Of a DNA stretch of 64,000 nucleotides, positions 16,437 through 57,346 are shown in pieces. Location: the NCBI GenBank assembly GCA_015143295.1, contig CM026562.1, forward strand, positions 17,259,442 to 17,323,441, written 5' to 3'. The first letter of the stretch is position 1. Every line of letters starts with the position of its first letter. Origin of the DNA: Tetracentron sinense. Taxonomy: Eukaryota; Streptophyta; Magnoliopsida; Trochodendrales; Trochodendraceae. The notes beneath the pieces are model-generated. The model saw nothing but the letters and a program-made list of their open reading frames with translations. It was not told the origin of the DNA and did no database searches. A program made the position numbers and the translations under genes.

Positions 16437-16556
16437 CTAATAGTAACCCTCACCCTGAGGTTCCTCCATACGCTCCTCAATGTACTCCTCCTCCACCCAT
16501 GGGCCAGGAGCACAGACATCGAATGGAGCAGCAGCTCCCTCAGAACTAGCATACAT
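16437..16556 (-). CDS. LTR micro-ORF (PWVEEEY family), Tekay-1 3' LTR copy
   Basis: This frame of 39 codons plus TAG reads MYASSEGAAAPFDVCAPG, then PWVEEEYIEE, and ends GEGYY. The ATG lies 10 nt after a CTGAG/CTCAG stem-loop (16585-16567 on this strand). The same peptide is in the other LTR (24146-24027), in LTR H, and in diverged form in Tekay-2, G and J. It is very acidic and has no signal or membrane segment. Its function is unknown. It might be translated from the retroelement leader RNA, or be the second exon of a spliced product. Confidence 0.45.
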   Translation of the reverse strand: MYASSEGAAAPFDVCAPGPWVEEEYIEERMEEPQGEGYY

Positions 16557-23731: not shown

Positions 23732-24026
23732 CTCCTGTCGCGACCCAAAACCCACTCTAGGAGTTAGAGTGAATCTTGGATGACTCATCATGACTTGCAT
23801 GACCAAAATAACCTGTAAAAGACCTGGAGCATATACAAAGAAGATATAAATAGCGGAAACATATTCTAACATAACACAGCGGAAGACTAATCAAACCTCT
23901 ATGTATATACATGATCCAAGTTTGTACAAAAAGATACGCAAAAGAAAGTGCGGACAGGCCCGCCAAAATACATGAATACATCTCTCTCAACTCACCCACA
24001 GCTATCCACTCAGAATCTACCACAAC

Positions 24027-24146
24027 CTAATAGTAACCCTCACCCTGAGGTTCCTCCACAGGCTCCTCAACGTACTCATCCTCCACCCATGGGCCAGGAG
24101 CACAGACATCGAATAGAGCAGCAGCTCCCTCAGAACCTACCGACAT
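24027..24146 (-). CDS. LTR micro-ORF, Tekay-1 5' LTR copy
   Basis: 39 codons plus TAG: MSVGSEGAAALFDVCAPG, then PWVEDEYVEEP, ending GEGYY. It differs from the 3' LTR copy at several residues but keeps length, start spacing and stop. The ATG follows the CTGAG/CTCAG stem-loop (24175-24157) by 10 nt. Being in the 5' LTR, it would sit in the leader of the genomic RNA, upstream of gag. Confidence 0.45.
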   Translation of the reverse strand: MSVGSEGAAALFDVCAPGPWVEDEYVEEPVEEPQGEGYY

Positions 24147-25540
24147 AAACGTACAGCTGAGCATGGAATACTCAGCGTGTACCAAATACTAACCAACAGT
24201 CATAGCAAACAATGACTATATGGAATGCAGGAAGCAGTTCACAGATATAAAGTAGGAACAATTCATATCATCACGTGATAGTAAAGCAGTTGATAATCAT
24301 GCTTGCATTTCGTAAAAGCCGATAAAATCCTTGAAAAACATCGTGCACTTGACTTGACTTAAAACATCCTTTTCGTGCTTAAAAAATTGTCTTGTCATGT
24401 GTCTTGTTTTGTCGTGTCGTGTTATGTTATGTGTGTCATGCTTGTATCATGCGTGTCATGCGTGCTTGCTTGAGAGTTCAACATGCTCATGTACTTGTGA
24501 GATGCGCTTGTGAGATGCCTTGAGAGGGAAGGGAGGCCCTTCTTTCGTGATATGCCTTGAGAGGGAATTGAGACCCTTCTTTAATGCAATGCACTTGTGA
24601 GTGACCCCTCTTGGAAGGGAGGAAAGTGTAAGCTCCCTCCTAAGAAATGCTTGTTCTTGTCCTCTTGTCAAAAACGAGGTAAAACATATCGTAACATATG
24701 TCCCACCCTTAACATCCTTACTCTTGCAAAACCGTAGGTAAAACATGTCATGCATGCCGTGCTCGTGGAATCGTGTGCATACTTTCATTTGAAATTAAAT
24801 ATGACAATTTGGGGATTTCACAATACATAGAACATCCAAATTTGAGCACGTAATCATTCATTCAAATTTTAGGGAAAGCAAGTAAGCGCACTATCATAAG
24901 CCCTAGTAAATCCATAAACATTTAAACATGCATTTTCCACTACAAATCGTCATTTTCTTCATTGAGGCATTTCATCAAACACATGGTATGTGTATTTTGG
25001 TTAACACCTAAATCTTTCATTTTATCCTACATGAATCATTCTTCATTCAATCCACATCATGTACGTTCATTATTGAGGTGAAATGCCCTCCCCATTTGAT
25101 TCATTACAACAAACACACGGCATCCAATCGCCCATTCACATCCACACCACCATCCATTCATCCCTACATTATCTTGTTTATAAATTTAGGGAAAACATAA
25201 AATAAGGAGAAAATAGAGATAACCGATGAACTAGAAGGGTAGTATAGGGTACCGACCTTGATTTAGGTTGAAGAATAACCTTGGTGTGTAGTTCCAACTT
25301 GAGGAAGAATCCCTCTTTGAGTTTGAGGAATTCTAGTTGCTTGAGGAAGGTCATTTGCTTGAAAATCTTCAAGATGAGCTTCCCTTGATCTCCAATCCAA
25401 GCCTTCTCTGAACGATTTCCTTAAAATCCTCTCTTCCCCTTTCTCCCCTTTTCTCTCCTCTAGGTTGGGAATGCCCCAAAATGAGGATCCCTAACAAGAA
25501 AAGGGTTTAAGACCTTCAAATCTGGAATCTGTTACCGCAT

Positions 25541-25800
25541 GCGATCGATCGCACACTTATCTGTGATCCATCGCAGGTCCTTGTGATGGATCGCACCTAG
25601 ATGCGATCTATCGCACATGAACCCGAACATTTCTGGTCTGATTTCCCCCTGCATGCGATCGATCGCACACTCTTGCGATCTATCGCAAATCCCTGTGATC
25701 TATCGCACCTGGGGATCCATCTATTGCATATGACCCCAAGAGTTTGGGACCCATTTCGCCTGCATGCGATCGATCGCACCTGACTTGCGATCGATCCAAC
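25541..25800. promoter_or_regulatory. Tekay-1 5' LTR palindrome array
   Basis: Counterpart of 17968-18232, starting with GCGATCGATCGC at 25541. Several units have drifted (TGTGATGGATCGCA, GCGATCTATCGC), so the two LTR copies show different patterns of unit decay. Confidence 0.75.
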
Positions 25801-26161
25801 CCTCTAGATTTTGTTGCTTTCTTCCATTTTTCCACCCTTTGGTAATTCGGCCATAACTTTCAACTCGTTTGTCCGATTTTGACGATTCAACTTGCATTGG
25901 ATTCGTCTTTCGAAAAGGAATATTCTTGACATTTCAAAATTTCCAATTTCTATTTTATTTATTGACTAAATCACCCCTAAAGTCGACTGATCTGTAAATG
26001 AGATTCAGCAACTTGGGTCTTCAATAGATCTGGCTTAGGAATACTACTTCTGAATACTTAGAGTTTTTTAATTTTCTCATTTCATAGTAATAGGAAGATT
26101 ACAAAGGCATAATGCCTTAGCTCGGTTTCCAATACATGGCCAAAAGTTTCGGGGCTCTACA

Positions 26162-32455: not shown

Positions 32456-34936
32456 TGTAAGCACCCGATTTTTACACCCAATCCTAACTGTAGTTATAGC
32501 CCATTTTAAACTATGGTTATCCCCTCACCTCAACCCCAGTCCCTTAAACCTAGGTAAGCCTCTAGTCAAACCCTAGAAAACCCTAGAACCAAAACCCCAG
32601 GTGAACCCTAGTAAATCCTAGGACTCAAAACCGTGTCCTAAACCCTCACCTTAGTTAAACCCTACCCTTAGGACCAAACCCTAGGAGACCTTACCATAAC
32701 CCATGACTTATAGGGCCTGGCCCAAGCCTCAGGACCATTAAGGCCCAAAAGCACTAAAGCCGAAGTCCCATAACCCGTATGTGCAGGCCCAGGCCCAGGC
32801 CCAGGCCCAGGCCCAATTCAAATAGATATCAGAAGCTCGGTAGTCGATCTACCGACATTTATTTTTTGCCTTGTTTCGGAATGTCGGTATATCTTCTATC
32901 GACATCTTCAAGTCCCGAGTTGCAGGCCTGCGTACACCCCTGCACACTCTACCTCCACCTCGAACTCTCCATTCTCAACTCTTAGTCGACCTCCCCTTGG
33001 TCCAACCACCTCCTCTCCCTTCTTCCTAATCCCACCTAGGTCCTTTGGTCCCTTCCCTATAAAACCCAAGCTCACCTTCACAGTTGGGGGCTACGCTTTT
33101 TTTAGAGAAGAACCCTTGTTGCAAAACCGAAATCCTCACCCTCTTCAAACCCTTGGTTCGGTTCTAGGCTTCCCCTAGACCTGCCTCTTCCCTCCCCTGC
33201 TCGTGTAGTGCCACCAGGACGCACCACCACCGTGCACAGGCCGACCCTCTATTTGGCAAGAAACAGAGTGCTGGGTAAGGACACTTGCTACCCATTTCTT
33301 TATTGTTCTCTCTCTTTTGAGCCCCTGGTCAATTCCAGGGGAGTTATTTGTTTTCGTTTTGATTGTTTAGCATGTAAATAAGCCCACACAGGGTGTTCAC
33401 CCATCTAAACCATAGGTGTGGTGAACCCCTTCGGGTATGGCAACTCCGGAGCGCCCAAAGCCATTAGAGGACCATCTAGGGGTCCCTCACATCATGAGGG
33501 AACCCCTGGTAATCTCTGTGCATAGCCCCCATGAGCATGATCTCGGTTTTTAGAAAAACCCAGAATGGCGGACTCTCAGTACCGCCACTCGTAAAAAAGC
33601 CTGTTTTCCCTTGTCGGTGATCCCTCTGTTGACTCCCTGTTTTTGACCTTTTTCTAGAGTGTCGGTAATACCTCTACCCAGATTCTGTTTCTCACCTGTT
33701 TTGGTATTGTCGGTACTACCTCTACCACCAATACACTGTTATCTGCATAGCACCTTTACGACCTTGTGGGGCCCACTCCAGGCATCCCCTGGGGCCCACA
33801 CAGAGCCTGATCTCTTCCTAGGAGTCCCCCCTACACTCCGATCACATTGGTTCACCCCGGGTTACACCTTAACCCTAGTTAACAATGGCAAAAACACTGA
33901 ACAAAAACACTGTATACATGTCCGTAATCCAGTTACCGACATTGTCTTTATTTTTGTTTTGGGCTTTTACAGGGGCCCAGGCCTGGTAGGAGACAACTTT
34001 AGGCCCTTCCTAGTCCCCTGGGCCCACCTTGGACTATACCAGACCCTTAACCATGGTTAAGTCCACCTCTAGTTAACATTTAACCACGGTTAAGCACCCC
34101 TTGACCCCACAAACTTTTGGGAAACTAAATGGAAATTTCTTAAAATGTAATTGGATGATAATCCTAACTTTGGCCCCCTCCCTAACCCTGGTTAGAAATC
34201 CTAACTACAGTTAGACCCCCTTAACCGCGGTTAGCAACCCTAACCGTAGTTAAACTTTGGTTTACGGCCTACCGGGCCTAAAAACCAAGTCTATCGAACT
34301 TACCTCTGCCTGTCGAGCCCCGCCTTAGCCTATCGGGTTACAACTCACTCACCCTTTAGTGTAGTTAGCAACCCTAACTGCAGTTAGTTCGGCCTAATCC
34401 CGGTTAGCAACCCTAACCAAGGCCAGACTCCTTCCTAGTCTACCGGACTACTCCCTAAGCCTACCGGGCTTACATACCTTGCACTTGACCCTCCTCGGTC
34501 AACCCAACCTAGCCTACCAGACTAGTCCATGTTAGCCACCCTTGGTGCACACACACATGCCCCTAGCCTCGGCATAGGCTCACGTGCCAGAACTACGCTC
34601 GATCTGATCTCACCCTGTGAGTACGTAGGCAGCCCAACACGGGCCCGACCCTAGTTAGCTTTTCCTTTCTTGGATTAGTATTCACTTAAATGCTTTGACA
34701 TTTTAAACAAGATTAACTTTAATTGGCTTAAACCCGGGAAGTACGGAATCATTGTAAAATAGAAGCCTCGGGGTGCCTAACACCTTCCCCGGACTTAACC
34801 GAACCCCTTACCCTGATCTCTCTCGTGGACCAAGACCTTATCCAAAACTTGGGGGACTTTATCCCTTCTGAATGAATAGGTGGCGACTCTCGAAACCCCG
34901 TGAGACCAAATCAAGGAGTGAATTTCCGCGCTCACA
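32456..34936 (+). repeat. Tat-1 3' LTR
   Basis: 2481 bp starting TGTAAGCACCCG and ending GCGCTCACA. It is followed by GGAAG and then by Copia-B gag (LPKAW... on the minus strand). It matches the 5' LTR throughout. Confidence 0.9.
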
Positions 34937-35540
34937 GGAAGCTTGGTCAAATCCTTAGCTTCTTGAATGGCAGTGAGTTTGGGACCCTAGCTTTTTGGGA
35001 GTGAGTGAAGAACTTTTCTTACATTTTCTGCATTGGAATATACTTTACTAAGAGATTTTAGTCCATTTAAAATATTAGTAAAGCGAGTAAACATATCACC
35101 TATTGATTCATCATTTTCTATTTTGAAAGTTCATACTTATGAACTAACATACTTATCTTTTCTTCTTTTACTTGATTCGTGCCTTCATATGTGACTTGAA
35201 GTTTGTCCTATATTTCTTTGGTGGAATCACATCCAAAGATTCTATTAAACTCTTGTGGACTTAGAGCACAATACAAATTGCTAATTGCTTTAGCATTTGT
35301 TTGGATGAGTTTAATATCAGCCTCATTCCATTCATCTTCAGTTTTAGGAATTCTAATACCATTAACTACTTTATGAGGTAGGTGAGGTCCTTTGACAATG
35401 ACTTTCCAGCAATCATAGTCAAGAGCTTGGAGATAAACCATCATCCTGGTTTTCCAATAGTTATTGTTTTCTTCATTGAATAATGGAGGACGGGTAGTGG
35501 ATTGGCCCTCTCCTAAGGTAGTAGCAAATATGTTTGCCAT
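34937..35540 (-). pseudogene. gag: Copia-B gag N-terminal half
   Basis: The start is at ATG 35540 (MANIFATTLGEGQS), followed by the typical copia gag opening FNEENNNYWKTRM and the DUF4219/UBN2-type core (CDSTKEI). A TAG at about 35208 stands in the STKEIW context, where Trp is expected, so it is TGG to TAG. The frame then continues through YEGTNQVKEEKISMLVHKYE with further small breaks to the Tat-1 junction at 34937. The gag resumes at 13526. Confidence 0.8.
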
Positions 35541-37183: not shown

Positions 37184-38176
37184 CAAGCCAATTTGGTGGC
37201 TTAGGGTTTACAACACCCTTAGAGAAGATTTTGAGAGAAATGAGAGATAGTTTGGGTTTCTGGCAAAGGGTTTTGCTTGTGCTTCGTCAAGGATCGTTAG
37301 GTAAAGCTTGTTCTTGCTTCCGAAGCCCAATCTTCACTTCCTCGAGCTTTCTCAAGCTTGGAGTGGATTCAATAAGCTTTCTTAAAGCTTTTATAGCTTC
37401 AAAGGAGTTCTTCTAAAAGGTAGATACACTCTACTACTTACCATGTACTCTTCCTCTTAAGAAAACCATGATTAAAGTATGTTCTTGGGTTGATTGGATG
37501 TTGATTTTATACTTAGATATAAACTACCACTATTAGGCACTCTATGTGTTTGGTTAAATGCCTCAAAGGGATTTTATGTTTAAGTATGCTCCTAATTTTG
37601 CTATGAGATGTAAGTTATCACCAGTATTGAGTTCTATGAATATGATGCTATGTCTACAAGCTTTCTAAATCCACATGATGCTCGCTCACAAGTACTATAT
37701 GCACTCTATGTTCACGAGTCTCGCATGATTAGATGATTTCTCACAAGAAAAGTGTTTTATTAAGTTCATAAGTTAAGATTTCGGTTCAAAAGGGTTTTTC
37801 TTCTAAGTTAAGGTTTCCAAGTATGGTTTTGCTAAAAGAGGTGTTTTTTAAAAGTGGATTTGCTCAAAGAATGATTTCTGAGATTCAAGGGCTTAGGCTG
37901 TAGCACCCCGGACTTTTTCATCCTAAATGAATAGCACCTTCGTAGCTAATTGGCCTTTTTTGTAGTCTAATTAATAAATAAGGGAGAAATTGGAAATTTC
38001 AAAATGTCAGAAATGTTTCTTTTCGAAGTACAAACCCAACGCAAGTTGAATCGTCAAAATCGGACGAACGAGTCAAAAGATAAAGCCAAAACAGTCTGGA
38101 CCTGCAGGCAATCGTAGCTCGGAAGGCAGTAAGGACGTAGCTCGAAAGGCACTAAGGACGTAGCTCTAGCTTTGAT

Positions 38177-38752
38177 AACGTATACGTTGTGCATCCGTTG
38201 TGCAACAGACAACGGGTACGTCGTGCAGCAGACAACGTGTACGTTGTACAACAAACAACGTGTACGTTGTACAACAAACAACGGGCACGTTGTACATAAG
38301 ACAACGGACAACGAGCTCAGCACTATGCACAACACAATGTGACAACGGGTTCGGCACCCTTCACAGCACAACGTGTTCATGCACAACACAACGTGACAAC
38401 GGGTTCGGCACTATTCACAGCACAACGGGTTCAGCACCCTTCACAGCACAACGTGTTCATGCACAACACAACGTGACAACGGGTTCGGCACCCTTCACAG
38501 CACAACGGGTTCGGCACCCTTCACAGCACAACGTGTTCATGCACAACACAACGTGACAATGGGTTCGGCACCCTTCACAGTACAACGTGTTTGGCACTAT
38601 TCACAGCACAACGTGTTCGGCACTATTCACAGCACAACGTGTTCGGCACTATTCACAGCACAACGTGTTTGGCACTATTCACAGCACAACGTGTTCGGCA
38701 CTATCCACAGCACAACGTGTTTGGCACTATTCACAACTCGACGTGTTCAGCA
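38177..38752. promoter_or_regulatory. Tekay-2 5' LTR: ACAACG(TGTA)CGTTGT array
   Basis: It starts with a perfect AACGTATACGTT palindrome (38177-38188), then ACAACGTGTACGTTGT units. It passes into a tandem array of about 27-bp units (CACAGCACAACGTGTTCGGC + ACTATT) from about 38320 to 38750. The AACGT/ACGTT core is kept throughout. Long frames through it (QHNVFGTIHSTT repeats) are repeat by-products. No clear TATA box follows. Confidence 0.7.
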
Positions 38753-39740
38753 CTCGTGTTTTTGCAGAAATTTCAGTAAGGGTATTATGGTCTTTTGGTC
38801 GGTTCATTCTTACCTTAAGAGTTTAACCCGAGCCTTTAGGGCTCATTCTCAACACTTAGAGGATTTGGGGGATTAGAAGAGAGGAGAAAGGGTTTCCTAA
38901 GCTAGGGTTTTGCTTTTGGAGAAGAATCAAAGGGGTTTTGAGACCCTAGATCACTTTAAGTCCGGTTTTTCTCCAAGATCACGGCTCAAGCACTCGTGGA
39001 GAGCGTTCTCCAAGCTAGGGCAGCAACCCAAGCACGTTTTTGAAAGGAGTTTCTTCCCCAACTCAAGTCTCCTTCAAGCAAAGGTGTTCTTCTTTCAAGT
39101 TGGAGCTTCAATCAAGGTTTCTACCAAGGATCAAGCCTTGATCTAAGGTTAGTACACCCTACTAACTTACCCTAGCAAAGATCTAGGTTTTCTATATAAA
39201 AATGTGATTCTTTATATTATGTTTTCTTCCTTATGAAATGTGTTATCCCCCATTAAATATAAACAAGATAATGGAAAAGGTGTGGATGTGTGGATGGAAT
39301 GTTGGATGTGGCGATTGGATGCCGAGATGTATGTTGTGTGATGTGTGTGATGGAAATGGTGGATGGGTATTTTACCAATAATGAACTTACCTTGATGTTT
39401 GGATGGAAAATATGCGCTAAAAAGAACAAGATGAATTATTAAGAAACATTGCATGTGTTGTGTTTGACAAAATGCCTAAACTATGAATAAACGACTTAGA
39501 TGAAGAAAATGGAAATAAGTTTTATGCATGTGTTCTTATAGACGATGAATTGATCCAATGTCATGTGAATTACTTAAGTTACCTATGCTAATATTATGAA
39601 TTGAATTGTAATGCCATATCTCTTTTGTTAAGCGCATTCCCACGATTGTTATTATTGGCACGCACATGAGCACGCATGATAGCATGAACCGAGATTTCAA
39701 GAGCATGTGCATATAATAAACAACAAGAAAATATTGCATG

Positions 39741-40128
39741 TCAAGGAGGTTGGTAGCCCACGGAGATTCAGGTGCTAGCCTCTGGCTCACAAGTGCATTG
39801 CATATCAAGGAGGTTGGTAGCCCAGGGACATTCAGGTACTAACCTCTGGCTCACAAGAAAACCATGCATTTCATAACAAGGAGGTTGGTAGCCCAGGGAC
39901 ATTCGGGTACTAACCTCTGGCTCACAAGAAAACCATGCATTTCATAACATGGAGGTTGGTAGCCCAGGGACATTCGGGTACTAACCTCTGGCTCACAAGT
40001 GCATTGCATATCAAGGAGGTTGGTAGCCCAGGGACATTCGGGTGCTAGCCTCTGGCTCACAAGTGCATTGCATATCAAGGAGGTTGGCAGCCCAGGGAGA
40101 TTCGGGTGCTAGCCTCTGGCTCACAAGT
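39741..40128. repeat. Tekay-2 5' LTR hairpin repeat array (6 units)
   Basis: Six units of about 52-73 bp built on CAAGGAGGTTGGTAGCCC, then CAGGGACATTCGGGT, then ACTAACCTCTGGCTCACAAG. Inside each unit GAGGTTGGTAGCCC pairs with GGGT(A/G)CTAACCTC to form a strong stem. The 3' LTR has five units. Confidence 0.85.
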
Positions 40129-40388
40129 TACAAGATGAAAGTTTACAAGATGATGATCATGCATTCATGCATGCACGCATATATGATTTCTACGAGGCAT
40201 ACCGGGACATGACATGGGTTTTCAAGCATGAGTTTTATCGGCGTTTTCGCACTCATGTACGCACGTCAGGATGCTTGTATTGTATCTTGCCTTATACTGT
40301 TTCTTTTGTGATGTTTCTATTACTGCTTGTATGATATTACTATTGTGTGTTTTTATTATTGTTATGGTCTGCTAGTAGCTTGTACTCG

Positions 40389-40407
40389 CTGAGTATTCCA
40401 TGCTCAG
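40389..40407 (+). promoter_or_regulatory. Conserved CTGAG/CTCAG stem-loop before micro-ORF
   Basis: CTGAGTATTCCATGCTCAG has 5-bp arms and a 9-base loop, and ends 10 nt before the micro-ORF ATG. The same stem is at 16567-16585, 24157-24175, 45964-45982, 51100-51118, 52089-52107 and 57359-57378, with loop changes but constant arms. It could be a leader RNA structure that affects initiation at the ATG. Confidence 0.6.
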
Positions 40408-40417
40408 CCGTACTTTC

Positions 40418-40558
40418 ATGTCGGCAGGTACTGAGGGAGCCCTCGACCCGGAGCCTTGGGTCGAGGAAGAGTATATAGAGGAGAGAGAGCCGGCTATTCC
40501 ATTACAGTCTCAGGCGGACCGAGACCTCGATGGGTGGCCATACCTCGACTACTGTTGA
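40418..40558 (+). CDS. LTR micro-ORF, Tekay-2 5' LTR copy
   Basis: 46 codons plus TGA: MSAGTEGALDPE, then PWVEEEYIEERE, ending DLDGWPYLDYC. Strongly acidic, with no export or membrane signal. The G(T/S)EGA start, the PW(V/I)EE(E/D)Y core and an aromatic C-terminus recur in the Tekay-1, G, H and J copies. Differences from those copies lie mainly at third codon positions. An AG|GT pair right after codon 3 (GGCAG|GT) is also acceptor-like, so splicing into this frame is an alternative. Confidence 0.5.
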   Translation: MSAGTEGALDPEPWVEEEYIEEREPAIPLQSQADRDLDGWPYLDYC

Positions 40559-40845
40559 GGGGAGAGTATGAGAGGGTCTTGTGTATTTTGATATTTTGAT
40601 AGGTGGGCCTGTCCACCTTAGACTTAGACATGTCTTGTATTTATGTTAACTTGGAATACTATTTCGGATCATTAGAAGAAATGAAAATTTGTTTACGCTT
40701 CCGCATATATGTTAGCTTCCGTGCTCTGATTATCGTTGTTAGTATTGTATTTCATCTTGTGCATTACAGGATGGTTTGATAGGTACGTAGTGTGACACCT
40801 AAAATATCCCTAAACTCCTAGGGGGTATTTTGGGGCGTTATAGAG

Positions 40846-40857
40846 TGGTATCAGAGC
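40846..40857 (+). other. Tekay-2 primer binding site (Met-tRNA)
   Basis: TGGTATCAGAGC, three bases after the 5' LTR. Complementary to initiator Met-tRNA. Confidence 0.93.
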
Positions 40858-41169
40858 TCTAGGCATTAGAGTCCCTAGGGTCACTTGGATGATTGAACAA
40901 GGTATTAGAATCACCTTAGAGAATTGTATTCCAAGTATAGACTAACAAGTTAGTCTTAGTCAAAATGGGTTGAACTTCAACTGAACATAGAGTCCTACGC
41001 TAGGAACACGGATTGTATGTTAGGCTATTGTGTTATATACCCTGTGTACATTATTTGTGTTGTACTTATTAAATATGCTTGATGAATATGTATTGAGTGA
41101 ATTGCGAAATTTGTACTAAATGCGTATCCAAGTTAGACTCATGTTGTATTGTTGTTCTCAGGAGAAATC

Positions 41170-42406
41170 ATGAGACGCAATACCCGGGGTCGTGGGTACA
41201 ACACGAGGGGTAATGGAGGTGATGTTCCATCGGGTGATGATCAACCCGGCTTTGCCCAAGCATTCGCATCCATAGCCGAGACTTTGGCTATGTTGGCGGC
41301 AAGGCAACCGGCCACTCCGCCTAATGCGGCACTTATTCCGGCTCCTCCTAACCGAGCCCAAGCCGGGATAGAAGCTTTTCGGAGGATGAGGCCTCCAACT
41401 TTTTGTGGAAGCATTGATCCACTTGTCGCCGAGGGTTGGATTCGGCAACTCGAGAAGATATTCTCGGTATTGGCACCTACAGGAGTGGAAAGGGTCACTT
41501 GGGCCGCCTTTATGCTTGAAGGCGAGGCCGACCATTGGTGGAAATCCGAACTTCGGACCCGAGAGTTGACCCGGCAAGGTCAAGATTGGACTTGGGAGGA
41601 ATTCTTGGAAGCTTTCAACAAGAAATACTTTCCGGTCGGAATGAGAGAGAAAATGGAAGTGGAATTTATTACCTTGGAGCAACGTAATATGTCCGTAGCG
41701 GCTTATGAAGCCAAATTTTCAGAGCTATCTCGATTTGCTCCACACATGATAGCTACCGAGGCTATGAAGGACCGGAAATTCGAGAGGGGGTTGAAGGCCT
41801 ACCTCAAGGATCGTGTCTCAATGTTCCGACATGAGACATATTCAGAAGTTGTGGACAAGGCATTGTTGGCCGAGTCGAATTCCGAAGAGTTCTTTAAGAG
41901 AAGAGGAATGGAGAAAGGACAGTCAAGTAGTTCAGGGGAGAAGAGAGCAAGGACTAGCTTGTATCAGTCCACAGGGCCGGCTCAGTCACAGAGGATGTAT
42001 TCGACACCACAGGTCCCTCGCTCTTTTGCTCCACCGGCTTTTCGCCCGGCTACCTCATATGCTCCTCGCTCCGCAGTTACTCAGGCTACGGGATATGCTC
42101 CTTCCTCCTATTTGCATGATGTCTGCACTCTTTCTGGAAGGAGGCATCTAGCAGGAGAATGCCGGAGGGTTTCAGGAAGTTGCTTCCATTGTGGTGACCA
42201 TGGTCACATGGTTAGAGATTGTCCCCGACGTCAATTGCAAGCTCAGTCTTCGGGGAGCAGGCCCCCGATTAGGCAGACATCTCAGCCTAGCTCTTCTCAG
42301 GCTTCGAGGGCCTCACAGTCTACCCGGCCTCCTCGCCCAGCAACACAAGGCCGAGTCTTTGCCTTATCCGAGAGAGATGCACGTGCATCCGACGATGTCG
42401 TGCAAG
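41170..42406 (+). CDS. gag: Tekay-2 gag (exon before intron)
   Basis: The start at 41170 (MRRNTRGRGYN) is chosen because it matches the Tekay-1 gag start; an upstream in-frame ATG at 41149 is not conserved. The retrotransposon gag core spans about residues 75-230: RMRPPTFCGSIDPLVAEGW, AAFMLEGEADHWW, FNKKYFPVGMREK and YEAKFSELSRFAP. A Ser/Pro/Ala-rich linker follows, then the CTLSGRRHLAGEC motif and the CCHC knuckle CFHCGDHGHMVRDC (about 42181-42222). Without splicing the frame ends six codons on, at 42421. With the predicted intron removed it runs into protease. Gag forms the particle and binds RNA. Confidence 0.85.
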
Positions 42407-42541
42407 GTACGCAAAAATTCTAGAGTCTAAGTTGTGTAAATTTTTATGGTTTATTATGTGATTATTTATACTAAGGGTTATTCTATGTATGATGCTTGTG
42501 ATTGTTTGAAATCTACTAATAGTAGTTACTTAATCGCACAG
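42407..42541 (+). other. Predicted spliceosomal intron between gag and pol
   Basis: The sequence reads CAAG|GTACGC...ATCGCACAG|GCGC, 135 bp and T-rich (TTTTTATGGTTTATTATG), with a branch-point-like CTACTAAT about 30 bp before the acceptor. Removing it restores a continuous phase-1 reading (DDVVQGALLVNE), typical for this family where gag and protease are normally one frame. Tekay-1 has the matching donor. Unspliced RNA gives gag alone and spliced RNA would give gag-pol, a possible way to set their ratio. Confidence 0.75.
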
Positions 42542-43623
42542 GCGCTTTATTAGTGAACGAGTGTCTCGCCCGTGCGTTGATCGACACAGGATCCACTCAC
42601 TCCTTTGTGTCACCTAGTTTCGCAAAGGGATTTTTGACTGAGTCTTCTCTGTTAGAGCGGGAGTTGACCATTGCAACTCCACTCGGCAAGTCAGTTGATA
42701 CGGACAAGATATTTAGGGATAGTGTGGTTCAAGTGGGTGAGAATGAATTGTTAGCCGATCTCATCGTCCTAGCTTTTCAAGACTTGGATTTTGATGTCAT
42801 CTTAGGGATGGATTGGTTGTCAAACCATCACGGGAATGTTGCGTGTTTTGAAAAGATGGTGAATTTCAAGCCGGTAGGAGTTAAGCCTTTTCATTTCCGA
42901 GGATTGAGAGAAAGGGATATTGCTCGCCTTGCAGCTTTGAGCTTAGCGAACCCCGAAGTACAAAACTCCTCGACTATTCCAGTTGTGAGTGAGTTCTTAG
43001 ACGTGTTTCCGGAGGAACTTCCAGGGTTACCTCCGAATCGGGAGATTGAGTTCGCTATAGAGCTTACTTCGGGCACCGCCCCGATTTCAAGGGCACCATA
43101 TAGAATGGCCCCTATAGAGCTGGAAGAATTGAAGAAACAGATTGAGGAGTTACAACAACTTGGTTTCATCCAACCAAGTGTCTCACCGTGGGGAGCTCCG
43201 GTTCTCTTTGTGAAGAAGGACGGGTCTATGAGGATGTGTATAGACTACCGTCAGTTGAACAAGGTAACTATCAAGAATCGTTATCCCTTGCCAAGGATCG
43301 ATGACTTGTTCGACCAACTGAAGGGAGCGAGATTCTTCTCCAAAATTGATCTTAGATCGGGGTATCATCAATTAAGGGTCAAGGCGGAAGATGTTCCGAA
43401 GACGGCTTTCAGGACTCGGTATGGGCATTACGAGTTCCTTGTCATGCCTTTTGGGCTGACGAATGCACCAGCGGCATTCATGGATTTGATGAACCGGTTG
43501 TTCCGATCTTACTTGGATCGATGCGTGATTGTATTCATTGATGACATTTTGGTGTATTCCCAGACACGGGAAGATCACGCACGAGACCTCCGCCTTGCTC
43601 TGGAGATGTTGAGAGAGCATAGG
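42542..43623 (+). pseudogene. pol: Tekay-2 protease and RT N-terminal part (before LTR G)
   Basis: Protease has the intact active site [13 protein letters not shown] and the ILGMDWL flap-side motif. RT follows with [71 protein letters not shown] and the catalytic FIDDILVYS (about 43535). The frame is open up to MLREHR, where solo LTR G enters at 43624. It resumes at 46438. A fortuitous frame into G ends at 43719. Confidence 0.92.
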
Positions 43624-44157
43624 TGTAGAACCCCGGATCTTGATGGCCATGTACGACGAATGATATCATATACTAAAGCATGTAAGAATGTATTTATGGT
43701 GTATGGGTGTTTGGAATGAAATAGGCAAGAGTATAGAATACTCTTGAGTATTGACAAGGGTTATGCCTTGGCATACCCTCGACTCTAAATAGCCCTAGCG
43801 TTCACACCGCTCGTCGGAATCAAGCGATTCTTGGATTTTTGGAAAGGTAATTGAACCCTATTCAGGGTTCATGTTGATCACTTGTCTTGGTTTTGAGTTG
43901 GTGTTAGGTCAAAAGACCGATTTCTGAAGTCGGGTCGGTTTAAAATCTGGATTGATGAAACCCAATTTCGGATCAGTCAGGTTTAGGGGCAAAATGGTCC
44001 AAGAAAAAGGAAGAATTGGAAGTTGTGAAAAACATGAAAGTTTTTTTCCTTCGAAAGAAGAATCCAACGCAAGTTGAATCGTCAAAATCGGACAAGCAAG
44101 TCAAAAGTTATGGCCGAGATACGAAAAAGCAAAAATGTTGAAGCTTTCTGCAAAAGT

Positions 44158-44408
44158 TGCGATCGCTCGTAGGGACCCTACGAACGATCGTAGCGGAGCT
44201 ACGAACGATCGTAGAGTTGCTACGATCGATCGTAAAGCCCTAGAAATGCTGGAAACTCTCAGGTGAAACTACGATTGATCGTAGGAAGCTATGATCGATC
44301 GTAGAAGGCTACGATCAATCGTAAATCGCTACGAACGATCGTAGATACGCGATTTTACTTTCTTGGATGCGATTTTTTAGGGGTTTTTCACCCCTTACAC
44401 TATAAATA
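44158..44408 (+). promoter_or_regulatory. LTR G: CTACGATCGATCGTAG array and TATA box
   Basis: Eight units of CTACGA(T/A)CGATCGTAG or close variants between 44158 and 44346. TATAAATA is at 44401-44408, about 55 bp further on. Variation falls at the centre while the outer CTACGA and CGTAG arms are kept. Confidence 0.75.
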
Positions 44409-45175
44409 GAAGACTTTAGGAGGGTTTTTGGGTTACCCTAAACCAAGGAGAGTTCCTAGAAAGAGAAGGAAAGGATCTTGAGCATTCCAAAGAGAGTTTT
44501 GCTTGAAACCAAGAAGAGCTTCAATCAAGGGTTTTAGAACCCTAGAACCGTTCTAAAAGGCTTGGATTCTCCAAATCCAACCTCAAGCTCGTGTGGAGTA
44601 CCTCTTCCAAGCTAGGGCAGCGTTTCTACATCATCCTCAAGGATTTTTCTTTCCCTTTTCAAGGTTAGTACACTCTTCCTAGTTACTTTAGTAATAACCT
44701 AGGATTTTTCTAAGTAAATATGTGTTGGATCTTCCCCATTGCTCCCTTGTGTTGGTATATGCTAAATCCCTAAAACATAAACAAGATAATACAAACAAAT
44801 GGTGGAATGTATGAATTGATGAAGAGTGGAGGCGATTGGATGCCATGTTGTGATGTGTTGAATGATGGGAAAAATGGTGGAAGGGCATATTACGCATAAT
44901 GAACACACCCCAAGTGTTTGATGAAATGTTCGAATGAGAAAATATGAAATAACTAAAGGTAAAAAGGTTGAATACCACATGTTTGATAGAATGCATGAAT
45001 AAACTAAGATTTGAAAGCATGAGTCACATAAATGTTCCCCATTTGGCAAGTTGTATGCATGTGTTTATTTCGCTTCTTAAATTCTCATGTGAGTTGGGAA
45101 TTGTTAAAATGCTATATGTCATCATGATTTCACGATTGCTATGCACGAGCACATATGTAGATGGAGGATATTGTC

Positions 45176-45780
45176 AAGGAGGTTGGTAGGCCCGGTTAAG
45201 GGTGCTAACCTCTGGCTCATAAGAAAGGAAATGGTATTGTCAAGGAGGTTAGTAGCCCAGGATTATGCGGGTGCTAGCCTCTGGCTCATAAGAAACGTAT
45301 TGCATTGTCAAGGGGGTTGGTAGCCGAGGGATCATGCGGGTACTAACCCCTGGCTCATAAGAAAGGACTCGGAAATGTTGCACTGTCAAGGAGATTGGTA
45401 GCCCCGGTTAAGGGTGCTAACCTCTGGCTCATAAGAAAGGAAATTGTATTGTCAAGGAGGTTAGTAGCCCAGGATTATGCGGGTGCTAACCTCTGGCTCA
45501 TAAGAAAGGTATTGTACTGTCAAGGGGGTTGGTAGCCGAGGGATGTGCGGGTGCTAACCTCTGGCTCATAAGTAAGGTATCGTACTGTCAAGGAGGCTGG
45601 TAGCCCAGGGATGTGAGGTTGCTAGCCTCTGGCTCATAAGAAGTGTATTGTACTGTCAAGGGGGTTGGTAGCCCAGGGATGTGCGGGTGCTAACCCCTGG
45701 CTCATAAGAAAGGTATTGTACTGTCAAGGAGGTTGGTAGCCCAGGGATATGCAGGTGCTAACCTCTGGCTCATAAGAAAT
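45176..45780. repeat. LTR G hairpin repeat array (9 units)
   Basis: Nine units of 61-79 bp: TGTCAAGGAGGTTGGTAGCCC, then (A/G)GG(A/T)T..TGCGGGTGCTAACCTCTGGCTCATAAG. Each has a GAGGTTGGTAGC / GGGTGCTAACCTC stem. In some units both sides change together (GGGGTTGGTAG with CTAACCCC), which keeps the pairing. Homologous to the Tekay-2 array. Confidence 0.85.
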
Positions 45781-45992
45781 ATTGAAAGGACAACTCAAAG
45801 AGGAATTGTATGATACATAGACATGTTTTAGTTTCATAATAATTATGACTTGATAAAATGTTTATGTATGAGGTTACTAGAAATGATTATGAACTATACT
45901 CCTCCCATTACTTGTATATGATGTTGTTCGTTATTACCACTGTTAGTTAGGGGCTTGTACTCACTGAGTATTCCATGCTCAGCCGTACTTTC

Positions 45993-46148
45993 ATGTCGGC
46001 AGGTACCCGAGTCCCTCTCGACATTTGTGATCCGAGTCCTTGGATAGAGGAGGACTATGGCAAGGAGGAACCTTATGAGGATCTAGTAGTCGAGCCTCAG
46101 GCGGAGGCGAGAGACTTAGACCATTGGCCCCACGGGGGTGACTATTGA
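45993..46148 (+). CDS. LTR micro-ORF, LTR G copy
   Basis: 51 codons plus TGA: MSAGTRVPLDICDPS, then PWIEEDYGKEE, ending DLDHWPHGGDY. The ATG follows the stem-loop (45964-45982) by 10 nt, as in the other copies. It combines the FDIC-like segment of the Tekay-1/H type with the longer LD.WP tail of the Tekay-2/J type. Open and undamaged. Confidence 0.48.
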   Translation: MSAGTRVPLDICDPSPWIEEDYGKEEPYEDLVVEPQAEARDLDHWPHGGDY

Positions 46149-46437
46149 GCGAGACAGAGTTGTATTTTGTCTTTTGTATTTTGTTAGGTGGGTCTGTCCA
46201 CCTTAGGCTTAGACGTGTTGTACATATGTTAAACTTGGAATACTATTTTGGAACTTTAGAAGAAAACAAAAAGAGTTGGTTGCGCTTCCGCATTTTATGT
46301 TTAGCTTCCGCGCTTTGATTTTCATTGTGTTAGTATTATATTTTGTCTTGTTCATTACAGGATGGTTTGGCAGGTTTGTATAGTCCACCTAAAGTATCCC
46401 TAAACTCCTAGGGGGTATTTTGGGGCGTGACAATAGG

Positions 46438-48685
46438 CTATATGCCAAATTGAGTAAGTGCGAGTTCTGGTTAGAGAAGGTCGCATTTCTTGGACATGTG
46501 GTGTCGGCCGAGGGCATTTCTGTAGATCCAGCCAAGGTTGAGGCAGTCATGAGTTGGGAGAGGCCCAAGAGCATCACGGAGATACGTAGTTTCCTCGGAT
46601 TGGCAGGCTACTACCGGAGATTTGTGGAGGGATTCTCCAGTTTGGCTGCACCTCTCACCTACTTGACAAGGAAAAATGCAAGGTTCAGTTGGAGTGACCG
46701 ATGTGAAGTAAGTTTCCAAGAGTTGAAGAAACGCCTCACCACAGCCCTTGTCCTTACTGTGCCATCTGGACCTTTTGGGTATGAGGTGTATAGTGATGCC
46801 TTGCATGTTGGACTCGGGTGTGTCCTAATGCAACACAAGAAGGTCATTGCCTATGCATCAAGGCAGTTGAAAGAGCATGAAAAGAACTACCCCACTAATG
46901 ACTTGGAACTTGCGGCGGTTGTGTTTGCACTTAAAAATTTGGCACCATTATCTGTACGGGGTGGAGTTCTATGTGTACACGGACCACAAGAGCCTCAAGT
47001 ATCTCTTTTCCCAAAAAGAGCTAAACTTAAGACAACGGCGTTGGATTGAGTTCTTAAAGGACTACGAGTGCACTATCCAATATCACCCGGGAAAAGCAAA
47101 TGTGGTGGTAGACACTCTGAGTAGGAAACCATCGGGGTTGTTGGCTCAGATGTTGGTGCGGGAATGGAGACTGTTAGACGATTTGGCAAATCTAGACATC
47201 AGTGTGAATGATTCTGTCCGCAGTCCGGTTTTGGCAAATGTTACAGTTCGGCCGTACCTTATAGACTTGATTCAGGAGTATCAAGCCACAGACACTGACT
47301 TGTTGGCTTTCCAGGATAAGGAAGTGGCTAAGGGTAGTACGGACTTCTCTCTCACTAGCCTAGGTGCTATTACATTCAAGGGAAGGCTTTGTGTCCCAGC
47401 CAATGCAGACCTTCGGAGAGAGATTATGGACGAAGCTCGCCGGTCTAAGTATACAGTGCATCCCGGGGGGAAAAAGATGTATCGGAACCTCAAGAGTCAC
47501 TTTTGGTGGCGAAACATGAAGAGGGAGGTTGCGAAGTATGTGGCCCGGTGTTTGGTGTGCCAACAGGTGAAAGCAGAGCATTTGAGATCGGCGGGTCTTT
47601 TGCAGTCTCTCCCTATTCCCGAGTGGAAATGGGAACATATCTCTATGGACTTCATCGTGGGGTTGCCGAAGACGGTTAGGAAGACCGATGCTATATGGGT
47701 AGTTGTTGATAGACTCACGAAGTCCGCTCATTTCTTACCGTACCGGACTACATTCAACTCCAATCAGTTAGCGGAGCTATACATCAAGGAAATAGTCCGA
47801 TTACACGGGGTGCCAGTGAGTATTGTGTCGGATAGAGACCCAAGATTCACATCCAGGTTTTGGAAAAGTTTTCAAGGTGCAATGGGCTCCCGATTAGACT
47901 TTAGCACAGCTTTCCACCCACAGACCGACGGGCAAACTGAGAGGGTGAATCAGGTTATTGAAGATATGCTCCGAGCATGTATGCTGGGCTTCAAGGGAAG
48001 TTGGGAAGATCACCTACCTTTGGTGGAATTCGCTTACAACAATAGTTATCAAGAAAGCATACAAATGGCGCCTTTCGAAGCTTTATACGGAAGGAGTTGT
48101 AGATCCCCGTTGTATTGGGATGAAGTGGGAGAAAGGAAGATTTTGGGCCCCGAGTTAATTGAACAAACCGCGGATAGGGTCAAGCTTATCCGGGAGAGGT
48201 TAAAGACCTCCCAAGATAGGCAGAAAAGCTATGTCGACAATCAAAGGAGGGATCTTGAATTCTGAGTCGGTGATTTTGTATTTGTAAGGATTTCACCAAC
48301 CAAGGGTGTTATGCGATTCGGGAAGAGAGGCAAGCTTAGCCCGAGATATGTGGGTCCGTTCGAGATCATTACTCGAGTCGGTGAAGTTGCTTACCGTGTT
48401 GCCTTGCCCGCTCATATGGCGGCGGTCCACGATGTGTTTCATATCTCCATGCTTCGGAAGTACATCCCAGATCCTTCTCACGTCATCGAGCTTGATCCAG
48501 TTGAGATTCGAGAGGACCTCATGTTGGTTGAGAAGCCGATTCACATATTGGATCAAAGAGACCAAGTGCTTCGCAACAAGACTATACCGCTAGTCCTAGT
48601 GCAATGGCAACATCACGCGAGAAAAGAAGCCACGTGGGAGCGTGAAGCCGAAGTCAAAGCAAAGTATCCTGAGTTGTTTGAATAG
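46438..48685 (+). pseudogene. pol: Tekay-2 RT C-terminus, RNase H, integrase, chromodomain-like tail
   Basis: Continues the RT ([33 protein letters not shown]), then RNase H ([26 protein letters not shown]). One extra A in AAAAA at 46933-46937 shifts the frame. It resumes in [11 protein letters not shown], ending RNase H. Integrase: [43 protein letters not shown] and [11 protein letters not shown], so D-D-E is intact. A TGA at 48263-48265 (EF*VGDFVF, from CGA or CAA) is the only nonsense codon. The C-terminal part has the LSPRYVGPFEI and VLVQWQHHARKEATWE chromodomain-like block and ends KYPELFE at 48685. Confidence 0.92.
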
Positions 48686-48776: not shown

Positions 48777-51553
48777 TGTAGCACCCCAGACTTTTTCATC
48801 CTAAATGAATAGCACATTCGTAGCTAATTGGCCGTTTTTGTAGTCTAATTAATAAATAAGGGAGAAATTGGAAATTTCGAAAAGTCACAAATGTTTCTTT
48901 TCGAAGTACGAACCCAACGCAACTTGAATCGTCAAAATCGGACGAACGAGTCAAAAGATATGGCCAAAACAGTCTGGACCTGCAGGCAATCGTAGCTCGG
49001 AAGGCACTAAGGACGTAGCTCTAGCTCTGATAACGTACACGTTGTGCATCCGTTGTGCAATAGACAACGGGTACGTCGTGCAGCAGACAACGTGTACGTT
49101 GTACAGCAAACAACGTGTACGTTGTACAGCTCACAACGGGCACATTGTACATAAGACAACGGACAATGAGCTCAGCACTATGCACAACACAACGTGACAA
49201 CGGGTTCGGCACCCTTCACAGCACTACGTGTTCATGCACAACACAACGTGACAACGGGTTCGGCACTATTCATAGCACAACGGGTTCGGCACCCTTCACA
49301 GCACAACGTGTTCATGCACAACACAACGTGACAACGGGTTCGGCACCCTTCACAGCACAACGGGTTCGGCACCCTTCACAGCACAACGTGTTCGGCACTA
49401 TTCATAGCACAACGTGTTCGGCACTATTCACAGCACAACGTGTTCAGCACTATTCACAGCACAACGTGTTCGGCACTATTCACAGCACAACGTGTTTGGC
49501 ACTATTCACAGCTCGACGTGTTCAGCACTCGTGTTTTTGCAGAAATTTCAGTAAGGGTATTATGGTCTTTTGGTCGGTTCACTCTTACCTTAAGAGTTTA
49601 ACCCGAGCCTTTAGGGCTCATTCTCAACACTTAGAGGATTTGGGGGATTAGAAGAGAGGAGAAAGGGTTTCCTAAGCTAGGGTTTTGCTTTTGGAGAAGA
49701 ATCAAAGGGGTTTTGAGACCCTAGATCACTTCAAGTCCGGTTTTTCTCCAAGGTCACGGCTCAAGCACTCGTGGAGAGCGTTCTCCAAGCTAGGGCAGCA
49801 ACCCAAGCACGTTTTTGAAAGGGGTTTCTTCCCCAACTCAAGTCTCCTTCAAGCAAAGGTGTTCTTCTTTCAAGTTGGAGCTTCAATCAAGGTTTCTACC
49901 AAGGATCAAGCCTTGATCTAAGGTTAGTACACCCTACTAACTTACCCTAGCAAAGATCTAGGTTTTCTATATAAAAATGTGATTCTTTATATTATGTTTT
50001 CCTCCTTATGAAATGTGTTATCCCCTATTAAATATAAACAAGATAATGGAAAAGGTGTGGATGTGTGGATGGAATGTTGGATGTGGCGATTGGATGCCGA
50101 GATGTATGTTGTGTGATGTGTGTGATGGAAATGGTGGATGGGTATTTTACCAATAATGAACTTACCTTGATGTTTGGATGGAAAATATGCGCTAAAAAGA
50201 ACAAGATGAATTATTAAGAAACATTGCATGTGTTGTGTTTGACAAAATGCCTAAACTATGAATAAACGACTTAGATGAAGAAAATGGAAATAGGTTTTAT
50301 GCATGTGTTCTTATAGACGATGAATTGATCCAATGTCATGTGAATTACTTAAGTTACCTATGCTAATATTATGAATTGAATTGTAATGCCATATCTCTTT
50401 TGTTAAGTGCATTCCCACGATTGTTATTATTGGCACGCACATGAGCACGCATGATAGCATGAACCGAGATTTCAAGAGCATGTGCATATAATAAACAACA
50501 AGAAAATATTGCATGTCAAGGAGGTTGGTAGCCCAGGGAGATTCGGGTGCTAGCCTCTGGCTCACAAGTGCATTGCATATCAAGGAGGTTGGTAGCCCAG
50601 GGACATTCGGGTACTAACCTCTGGCTCACAAGAAAACTATGCATTTCATAACAAGGAGGTTGGTAGCCCAGGGACATTCGGGTACTAACCTCTGGCTCAC
50701 AAGAAAACCATGCATTTCATAACAAGGAGGTTGGTAGCCCAGGGACATTCGGGTACTAACCTCTGGCTCACAAGTGCATTGCATATGAAGGAGGTTGGCA
50801 GCCCAGGGAGATTCGGGTGCTAGCCTCTGGCTCACAAGTTACAAGATGAAAGTTTACAAGATGATGATCATGCATTCATGCATGCACGCATATATGATTT
50901 CTACGAGGCATACCGGGACATGACATGGGTTTTCAAGCATGAGTTTTATCGACGTTTTCTCACTCAAGTACGCACATCAGGATGCTTGTATTGTATCTTG
51001 CCTTATATTGTTTCTTTTGTGATGTTTCTATTACTGCTTGTATGATATTACTATTGTGTATTTTTATTATTGTTATGGTCTGCTAGTAGCTTGTACTCGC
51101 TGAGTATTCCATGCTCAGCCGTACTTTCATGTCGGCAGGTACTGAGGGAGCCCTCGACCCGAAGCCTTGGGTCGAGGAAGAATATATAGAGGAGAGAGAG
51201 CCGGCTATTCCATTACAGTCTCAGGCGGACCGAGACCTCGATGGGTGGCCATACCTCGACTACTGTTGAGGGGAGAGTATGAGAGGGTCTTGTGTATTTT
51301 GATATTTTGATAGGTGGGCCTGTCCACCTTAGACTTAGACATGTCTTGTATTTATGTTAACTTGGAATACTATTTTGGATCATTAGAAGAAATGAAAATT
51401 TGTTTACGCTTCCGCATATATGTTAGCTTCCGCGCTCTGATTATCGTTGTTAGTACTATATTTCATCTTGTGCATTACAGGATGGTTTGATAGGTACGTA
51501 GTGTGACACCTAAAATATCCCTAAACTCCTAGGGGGTATTTTGGGGCGTTACA
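48777..51553 (+). repeat. Tekay-2 3' LTR
   Basis: 2777 bp, TGTAGCACCCCAG to ...GGGGCGTTACA, followed by the TSD TAGGC. Its palindrome/27-bp array (about 49030-49520) and its hairpin array (50511-50840, five units) are each shorter than in the 5' LTR. Confidence 0.93.
51129..51269 (+). CDS. LTR micro-ORF, Tekay-2 3' LTR copy
   Basis: 46 codons plus TGA. It differs from the 5' LTR copy by one residue before the core (DPK for DPE before PWVEEEY) and a synonymous change in EEEY. It is preceded by the stem-loop at 51100-51118. Confidence 0.48.
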   Translation: MSAGTEGALDPKPWVEEEYIEEREPAIPLQSQADRDLDGWPYLDYC

Positions 51554-51830: not shown

Positions 51831-52377
51831 TATCGGTTTTGTGAATCACCCTAAGTGTCGGATTTGTTATGGCTCAAAGTATATGGTTAGTGAAATGCTT
51901 AACAATATGTGCCTTGAAAAGAAATGCTCAACAATATGTGCCTTGAAAAGAAATGCTCACATGCTATCTGTTTTATGAACTACTCTACGTTACATGCTCA
52001 TTCTGCCTTGCTATTGCCTGTTTTGTTCTGATAAATGCATATGCTATCCTTGGTATTCATAGCAATGTTATTTAGTAGTTTGTATACACTGAGTATTCCA
52101 TGCTCAGCTGAGTTGTAGAACCCCAGAACTTTCTATATATGTCTTGGTATCTGTGTCAAGGCATGATGCCTATGTAATCTCTAATTCCATGAAATAAGAA
52201 CTTGGAACATTTGAGAATTTCGCGTTGGTGTTACAAAATAATTAAATAAAATATTTAATAATGAACTATAGCCTTGAAAGAGTCCTAGTCATGTTTAGAA
52301 AAAGTCAAAAGGGAAGTAGGATAAGTCCAAGTAGTAGGAATAGGTGAAAAATGGTCTCAGTGTAGGAATTTGTAGAG

Positions 52378-52495
52378 CACCGATCGCTCAGTCCATTTCA
52401 GCGATCGATCAGTCCATAACCGATCGATTTGTTTTTGACCAGGAGCTCAGTCAAAACACCGGTCACTCGGTAGGCGACCGATCGCTCGGTCTATC
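52378..52495. promoter_or_regulatory. LTR H palindrome array
   Basis: Five or so degenerate units of the ACCGATCG(A/C)TCGGT type, some half decayed (ACCGATCGCTCAGT, GCGATCGATCAGT). No clear TATA box follows. It sits 265 bp inside the LTR. Confidence 0.6.
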
Positions 52496-53847: not shown

Positions 53848-53967
53848 ATGCCAGTAGGTACTGAGGGAGCTGCTGCTCCATTCGACATCTGTGCTCCTCG
53901 CCCTTGGGTAGAAGAGGAGTATGTTGAGGAACCTATGGAGGAACCTCGAGTAGACGAGTACTACTAG
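53848..53967 (+). CDS. LTR micro-ORF, LTR H copy
   Basis: 39 codons plus TAG: MPVGTEGAAAPFDICAPR, then PWVEEEYVEEP, ending VDEYY. The upstream stem-loop has decayed (GAGTATTCTATGCTTAG), but the 10-nt spacing to the ATG is kept. Closest to the Tekay-1 copies. Confidence 0.48.
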   Translation: MPVGTEGAAAPFDICAPRPWVEEEYVEEPMEEPRVDEYY

Positions 53968-54270
53968 GTGGTGGATTCTGAGTGAATCACTATGGGTGTG
54001 AGTTTGAGAGATTGTATTTATGTATTTTGGTGGGCATGTCCGCACTTTCCTTTGTTTTCCTTTTGTACACAACTTGGATCATGTATATATATATGCTTAG
54101 AGGTTTTGTTAGTCTTCCGCTGTGCTATGTTAGTTATGTTTCTGCTATGATGTCCTCTTTGTATATGCTCCAGGTCATTTGAAGGTTATTTTGGTCAAGC
54201 AAGTCATGATGAGTCGTCCAAGATTCACTCTAACTCTTAGGGTGGGTTTTGGGTAGCGACACGAGTTGTT

Positions 54271-54405
54271 GACTTCAGTAGGTTCTATGGATGCACACGC
54301 TCCGAGCCTTGGATAGAAGAGGAGTACTACAAGCCGGAGCCGGCCATGGATCATTACCAGGATGATGGAGCTCTAGATAGGAGGCCCTACCTAGACTATT
54401 CTTGA
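54271..54405 (+). pseudogene. Decayed LTR micro-ORF of LTR E
   Basis: The initiator position reads TTG where ATG is expected, and a 1-base shift occurs before the core. After the shift the frame 54304-54405 reads EPWIEEEYYKPEPAMDH and ends PYLDYS with TGA. It is closest to the LTR J copy (PWIEEEYYEPEP). Confidence 0.5.
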
Positions 54406-56916: not shown

Positions 56917-56918
56917 AG

Positions 56919-57205: not shown

Positions 57206-57346
57206 TCAACAAAAGTCTAATTCGGGCCACTTATCTAGTACTCCATCATCCTGATGATGCATAGTAGGCTCCGGCTCGTAGTACTCCTCTTCTATCCAAG
57301 GTTCTGAAACACAGATGTTGAAGGGAGCATGTGCACTTGTTGACAT
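57206..57346 (-). CDS. LTR micro-ORF, LTR J copy
   Basis: 46 codons plus TGA: MSTSAHAPFNICVSE, then PWIEEEYYEPEP, ending LDKWPELDFC. It has the same length as the Tekay-2 copies although the sequence differs widely. The ATG lies 12 nt after CTGAGTATTGAAACACTCAG read on the other strand (57378-57359). The frame is open further upstream into solo LTR M only by chance. Confidence 0.48.
   Translation of the reverse strand: MSTSAHAPFNICVSEPWIEEEYYEPEPTMHHQDDGVLDKWPELDFC

Follow-up and report, generated by a model that had tools for sequence, protein, structure and literature searches.

A short acidic reading frame near the 3' end of chromovirus-type plant LTRs has probably been kept by selection as a peptide, and a splice-acceptor-like block lies ahead of gag

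According to the sections consulted of each paper, the aORFs of plant LTR retrotransposons sit in the internal region, with chromoviruses named as carriers of 5' aORFs (PMC7264820), and the 5' aORF of sunflower Tekay encodes 402 aa in a study whose ORF search used minimum_length = 300 (PMC11728184). Among the CRM chromoviruses, part of the integrase lies within the 3' LTR (PMC3059260). For the ribosome shunt of CaMV and RTBV, the uORF peptide is described as neither conserved nor essential for shunting, and attenuation of the main ORF by conserved-peptide uORFs is also known (PMC5902531). Moreover, spliced RNAs separate translation from replication in Ogre, EVADE, and BARE, where the introns are found within gag-pol (PMC12786077). 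In the portions of these five sources that were consulted, a separate conserved short frame inside an LTR is not described, and our literature search (titles and abstract starts, with subscription papers mostly absent) did not find an LTR-encoded plant peptide.

Here, we analysed a window of 64,000 nt, the whole stretch at contig position 17259442-17323441, from a genome that comprises 1.16 Gb in 1479 contigs. The window holds plant-type LTR retrotransposons nested within one another, and such LTR elements are abundant in plants. Foremost among them are two Ty3/gypsy elements with both LTRs present in each, these being Tekay-2 (T2) on the plus strand (5' LTR 37899..40842, paired with the 3' LTR 48777-51553) and Tekay-1 (T1) on the minus strand (5' LTR 23736..26161, paired with the 3' LTR 16176-18588). 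"Tekay" is the clade label of an earlier note on this DNA, and we use it as a name, not as a placement derived from RT phylogeny. In T2, the Pfam matches follow the gypsy order of gag, protease, RT, RNase H, and integrase (41149-42423, 42553-43719, and 46877-48265), with a gag frame at 41170..42423 (plus strand; ATG at 41170) that includes Retrotrans_gag and a zinc knuckle. Both elements are decayed, T2 having an in-frame stop in pol ahead of 48266 and T1 a stop shortly past the ATG of its gag frame. Past the pol stop of T2 lies a C-terminal piece of integrase (48266..48676, plus strand), in which SH3_Tf2-1 (2e-26) precedes a Chromo match that is weak (E=1.3e-4, 22.2 bits) and below the Pfam cut-off of 25.1. 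Given the gag-pol domains and this weak Chromo match in the C-terminal piece of integrase, T2 is probably a chromovirus.

Right after the T2 5' LTR is the primer binding site (PBS) TGGTATCAGAGCT (40846..40858, plus strand), which we take to be of the initiator-Met tRNA type. Past this PBS, we noticed an inverted repeat, GACTAAC..GTTAGTC (40940-40955, plus strand), in a stretch partly common to T1; it is a possible packaging or dimerisation stem. Further LTRs are inserted in and around these elements. Inside the T2 pol is the solo LTR G (~43624-46432, plus strand), with ATAGG flanking it on either side, and its ~65-bp tandem units (45169-45784) resemble an array in the T2 LTR (39733-40128). LTR H (~52114-54261, plus strand; flanks TGAGT/CGAGT) lies inside LTR E, between the stretch with the E hairpin (52082-52113, plus strand) and that with the E frame (54262-54405, plus strand). 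LTR J is on the minus strand with its end near 56935, and its 3' end (~56910-56935) adjoins a PBS-like sequence in reverse complement (GTGGTATCAGAGCTC), as would result from insertion of J beside the PBS of another element in the opposite orientation. An LTR pair of a different element (13527-15940 and 32456-34938; 90% identical), with another PBS type, encloses T1.

Near the 3' end of the chromovirus-type LTRs, 4 nt past a conserved hairpin, is a short open frame of 39-51 codons (the micro-ORF). The eight frames listed in the earlier note, which had left out the strand, are all present. In T2, these are at 40418..40558 (5' LTR) and 51129..51269 (3' LTR), each on the plus strand and encoding 46 aa, and in T1 at 24027..24146 (5' LTR) and 16437..16556 (3' LTR), each on the minus strand and encoding 39 aa. 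The others are in solo LTR G (45993..46148, plus strand, 51 aa), LTR H (53848..53967, plus strand, 39 aa), LTR J (57206..57346, minus strand, 46 aa), and LTR E (54271..54405, plus strand). Since the micro-ORF lies wholly in the LTR, within both LTRs of T1 and of T2 and not in the internal region, an element carries two copies of it and a solo LTR can keep one. The ATG, frame, and stop are intact in seven of the eight copies, from five families, and thus the frequent frameshifts named beforehand as an argument against a peptide are not what we see in the window. The eighth, that of E, is a remnant that is open though without a start. It had earlier been described only as a decayed copy, which overlooked that the H insertion sits between the hairpin and the frame; simple truncation as the reason for the absent start was ruled out, in that H separates the parts of E and the aligned start position (by eye) has no ATG.

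All eight rows of the peptide alignment share the invariant residues P, W, one E, Y, and one later E. The conserved core, PW[VI]EE[ED]Y, is located mid-peptide and is followed by 14-29 residues that vary in both length and sequence. The peptides are strongly acidic, with 10-14 D/E against 0-3 K/R and 5-6 aromatics in the six that were counted. Two further features that had been put forward as common to the frames turned out to be less general than proposed: the (S/T)EGA start is found in five of the seven full frames and is missing from G and J, and the (F/L)(D/N)(I/V)C segment is likewise found in five of seven and is missing from both T2 copies. At the -3 position of the micro-ORF ATG, there is a T in 7/7 copies, as against an A at the T2 gag ATG. 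An AlphaFold prediction for the peptide gave a mean pLDDT of 65 (80 for block 11-20), which is of low confidence, with zero secondary structure assigned. As a control, the LTR pair at 13527-15940 and 32456-34938 gave zero W[VILM]EE matches in six frames, though this strict pattern also misses the WVED of T1b. That the micro-ORF is a remnant of gag or of some other domain was ruled out, as it has no Pfam family and has its own start and stop.

More conspicuously, the nucleotide variation in the core follows the codons. Among its seven codons, the variable columns number 1/7, 0/7, and 6/7 at the first, second, and third positions, and the only amino-acid changes are V/I and E/D, just as the earlier note had it. 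Third positions thus vary in 6/7 columns and the others in 1/14 (Fisher p=0.00085, alike for 8 copies, 7 copies, or 5 family representatives), which speaks against equal conservation at all codon positions; with the two upstream codons added, the p value is 0.0027. This phase test rests on 21 columns, and the data, from five families in one genome, are few. Over the gap-free 39 codons of the T1b and H pair, 22 differences fall 5, 4, and 13 by codon position (binomial p=0.012).

In 19 between-family pairs drawn from seven copies (Nei-Gojobori, protein-guided alignment), pN/pS is 0.30-0.52 and so not close to 1, in support of the selection on a peptide proposed earlier, for five families of one genome. 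E was omitted from these pairs because it has no start and has an indel. In the same pairs, pS is 0.40-0.94, and as this implies saturation, the true between-family pN/pS is expected to be lower; the codon-guided alignment, for its part, biases pN/pS downward outside the core, though the core test is independent of it. Rather differently, the T1a and T1b LTR pair of one insertion gave a pN/pS of 1.1 (10 differences, of which 2 are synonymous and 8 replacement), and the T2a and T2b pair, with only 2 differences and a pN/pS of 0.27, is uninformative. From the contrast between the families and the T1 pair, active lineages seem to keep the peptide as a single insertion drifts, which is consistent with lineages being under purifying selection and inserted copies decaying neutrally. 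In our view, the micro-ORF has very probably been under selection as a peptide.

The hairpin that precedes the micro-ORF is at 40382..40413 (plus strand) in the T2 5' LTR, with further copies at 51093-51124, 45957-45988, and 53813-53843 (plus strand) and at 16561-16592, 24151-24182, and 57353-57385 (minus strand); that of E (52082-52108) is parted from its frame by H. It has the form GTAC..CTGAGTAT...ATGCTCAG..GTAC, and, apart from one gap in H, seven copies retain all 12 predicted pairs. Among these seven copies, three changes that keep a pair are one-sided and zero are two-sided compensatory changes. When single folds were compared with 200 shuffles, those as good numbered 2 for T1a, 2 for J, 8 for T2, 33 for G, and 41 for H. 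Searching the window with the hairpin anchor gave 6 matches, against 0 in 100 shuffles. In T1, T2 (at 40400), G, and H, the hairpin contains an ATG that shares the reading frame of the micro-ORF and gives an MLSRTF extension (MLSCTF in T1b), and the J hairpin has no in-frame ATG.

The LTR families had been called hard to align outside the micro-ORF, which proved too strong, as their last ~480 nt can be aligned between families. Here, the mean pairwise identity in 30-column blocks from five families is best at the hairpin (0.83), followed by the LTR 3' end (0.76) and then the core (0.68). Outside its core, the micro-ORF has a sliding identity of 0.24-0.55, no better than the remainder of the region. 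The hairpin, at least as conserved as the micro-ORF, had gone without mention. Because it outscores the core in identity, part of the conservation may be at the RNA or DNA level, and the 3' part of the LTR combines a coding frame with an adjacent RNA or DNA element.

By DNA order, the micro-ORF is upstream of gag, and between its stop and the gag ATG there are 14 ATGs in 611 nt in T2 and 21 ATGs in ~641 nt in T1, which makes simple cap-to-gag scanning unlikely. Directly ahead of the gag ATG, at a distance of 8 nt in T2 and 10 nt in T1, is a block that resembles a 3' splice site (41133..41163, plus strand, in T2; the T1 block at 23394-23424, minus strand, is near-identical). It consists of a branch-point-like ACTCAT, a pyrimidine-rich run, and CTCAG/GA, its end reading TTGTTCTCAG/GA (a slash marks the putative junction). 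This acceptor-like block has 2 matches in the window and 0 in 100 shuffles, with the remaining leaders of T1 and T2 diverged from one another. Scored with a donor matrix, the best donor-like sites differ between families: they are TAG/GTACGT in T2, located past the frame but still short of the LTR end, CAG/GTTTGT in G at a comparable place, and GAA/GTAAGT in T1, past the PBS; for G, H, and J the scan covered the LTR only, and J has no donor-like site of similar quality. Because the 14-21 ATGs precede the gag start and a splice-site-like block adjoins it, a spliced RNA is probably the message for Gag, as far as the sequence can tell. This putative splicing is independent of the peptide, and the proposal draws on the two elements T1 and T2.

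In a genome search with the T2 peptide, the best 150 of 26,208 loose first-look candidates are all full-length, without a stop, and 96-100% identical to the query, with 12 of them identical. Among the matches listed are same-strand pairs ~7.6 kb apart (C12:18353084/18360682 and C13:32642103/32649686), an arrangement that LTR pairs would show. These matches, being the top of the ranking, represent a large young family and not between-family constraint. A protein search that used the alignment of all eight peptides produced 13 word candidates and zero at E<=10 in a database that may have few plant proteins, and a profile search of the PDB with the micro-ORF peptide gave zero matches. A Pfam match of one of the eight peptides to GyrB_hook (E=0.046) was taken as chance. 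In IMG/VR, the 14 pattern matches of a peptide scan were none of them confirmed by tblastn, and a scan with the hairpin pattern gave zero matches. The single hairpin-pattern match in GTDB, from a Pseudomonadales MAG (L001), was likewise put down to chance, one downstream frame having been translated with nothing alike found. Rfam at the gathering threshold gave zero matches in the window.

As the explanation we favour, the 3' part of chromovirus-type LTRs would encode a short acidic peptide that was retained as the families diverged. Transcription would start upstream of the hairpin, and in the element RNA the micro-ORF would then sit in the 5' leader, directly past the stem-loop and a long way ahead of gag; we consider it likely that such a leader is where it is read. 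Scanning ribosomes would translate it from weak-context AUGs, and the resulting micropeptide may act in trans, its short linear motif binding a protein of the element or of the host. Splicing from a putative donor to the block ahead of gag would remove the PBS and the intervening AUGs, and unspliced RNA would remain for packaging and for the peptide. Taken as a whole, a leader-encoded acidic micropeptide kept by selection as a trans-acting short linear motif, together with gag expression from spliced RNA, has in our judgement an even chance of being correct. The wider statement, that a chromovirus lineage makes an LTR-encoded, trans-acting acidic micropeptide from its unspliced RNA and Gag from a leader-spliced, PBS-less RNA, is offered tentatively and is doubtful in its full form.

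One choice to be made is how the peptide would act. A cis-acting conserved-peptide uORF, the nascent chain of which slows or stalls the ribosome and so limits downstream translation, would agree with a selected peptide upstream of gag and with the attenuating uORFs of this kind in the consulted part of PMC5902531. Set against this are the mid-peptide location of the motif, the 14-29 residues that come after it, variable in number and in sequence, and the many further ATGs that separate the micro-ORF from gag; this reading is unlikely in our estimate. Peptides that stall ribosomes generally do so through residues close to their C-terminus. It is the conserved acidic and aromatic motif mid-peptide, with length and ends variable, that favours action in trans over ribosome stalling, as does a predicted structure of low confidence except near the core, and to a peptide that acts in trans through a short linear motif, rather than in cis, we give slightly less than an even chance. 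A different choice is whether the frame is incidental to an RNA or DNA element, be it a hairpin or one for packaging, dimerisation, promoter-downstream function, or polyadenylation. Such an element would account for the hairpin being the best-conserved 30-column block, for its retained pairing with three one-sided changes and one gap in H, and for the T2, T1a, and J folds that beat most shuffles. However, the G and H folds are ordinary, two-sided compensation is absent from the hairpin, and the third-position variation in the core is not what an RNA or DNA motif would produce, so that we regard an incidental frame as quite improbable.

The acceptor-like block also allows for the micro-ORF to be a first coding exon, in which a GT in codon 4 would be spliced to the conserved block, the Gag N-terminus would start in the LTR, and the remaining frame would be a by-product. 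Codon 4 does contain GT in 7/7 full frames, and in T2 this site (CAG/GTACTG) ranks third among leader donors and its fusion to the acceptor is in frame with gag. In T1 and J, though, the codon-4 donor scores poorly, the T1 fusion is out of frame, and selection on a core downstream of codon 4 would be left unexplained, all of which makes this exon very improbable. Shared ancestry without selection, by way of recent common descent and recombination between families, would be in keeping with the related LTR 3' parts of families that all lie in one region. Yet synonymous sites are strongly diverged (pS 0.40-0.94) and the core residues are not, and since the phase bias of the core weakens it further, we find this account scarcely probable.

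Were the favoured account of a selected, trans-acting micropeptide true, an element credited with gag and pol only would have a third gene product, a regulatory one, which even solo LTRs can carry. LTRs are usually treated as regulatory DNA; with a selected peptide in them, this abundant class of plant elements would gain a gene product. Solo LTRs such as G do carry the micro-ORF, and host transcripts could express the peptide there. The acceptor-like block, for its part, suggests a testable way in which ribosomes could get to gag despite 14-21 upstream ATGs and in which the element RNA could be apportioned to translation and replication.

The comparison with the systems introduced above extends as far as the consulted parts of their descriptions. 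Like the plant aORFs, the micro-ORF is located beyond gag-pol, is conserved across copies, and has no known domain; as a frame outside gag-pol, it is kept in most copies, namely seven of eight in the window, and the best 150 of the 26,208 genome candidates are without a stop. Unlike those internal frames, of which the sunflower example has 402 aa, it has 39-51 codons and lies wholly within the LTR. It resembles the CaMV and RTBV uORFs in being a short ORF that precedes the first large one, in a predicted long leader rich in AUGs and with RNA structure, though here, in contrast to those uORFs, the peptide core is the conserved part. The purifying selection on the peptide that characterises conserved-peptide uORFs is found as well, in five families of one genome. 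As in CRM, protein-coding sequence occurs within a chromovirus LTR; there it is the tail of the pol frame entering the LTR, whereas the micro-ORF is separate, has its own start and stop, and sits near the opposite LTR end. Finally, the putative splicing would split the element RNA into translated and replicated pools, as in Ogre, EVADE, and BARE, but with an acceptor-like block that lies ahead of gag and a predicted intron that would take out the PBS.
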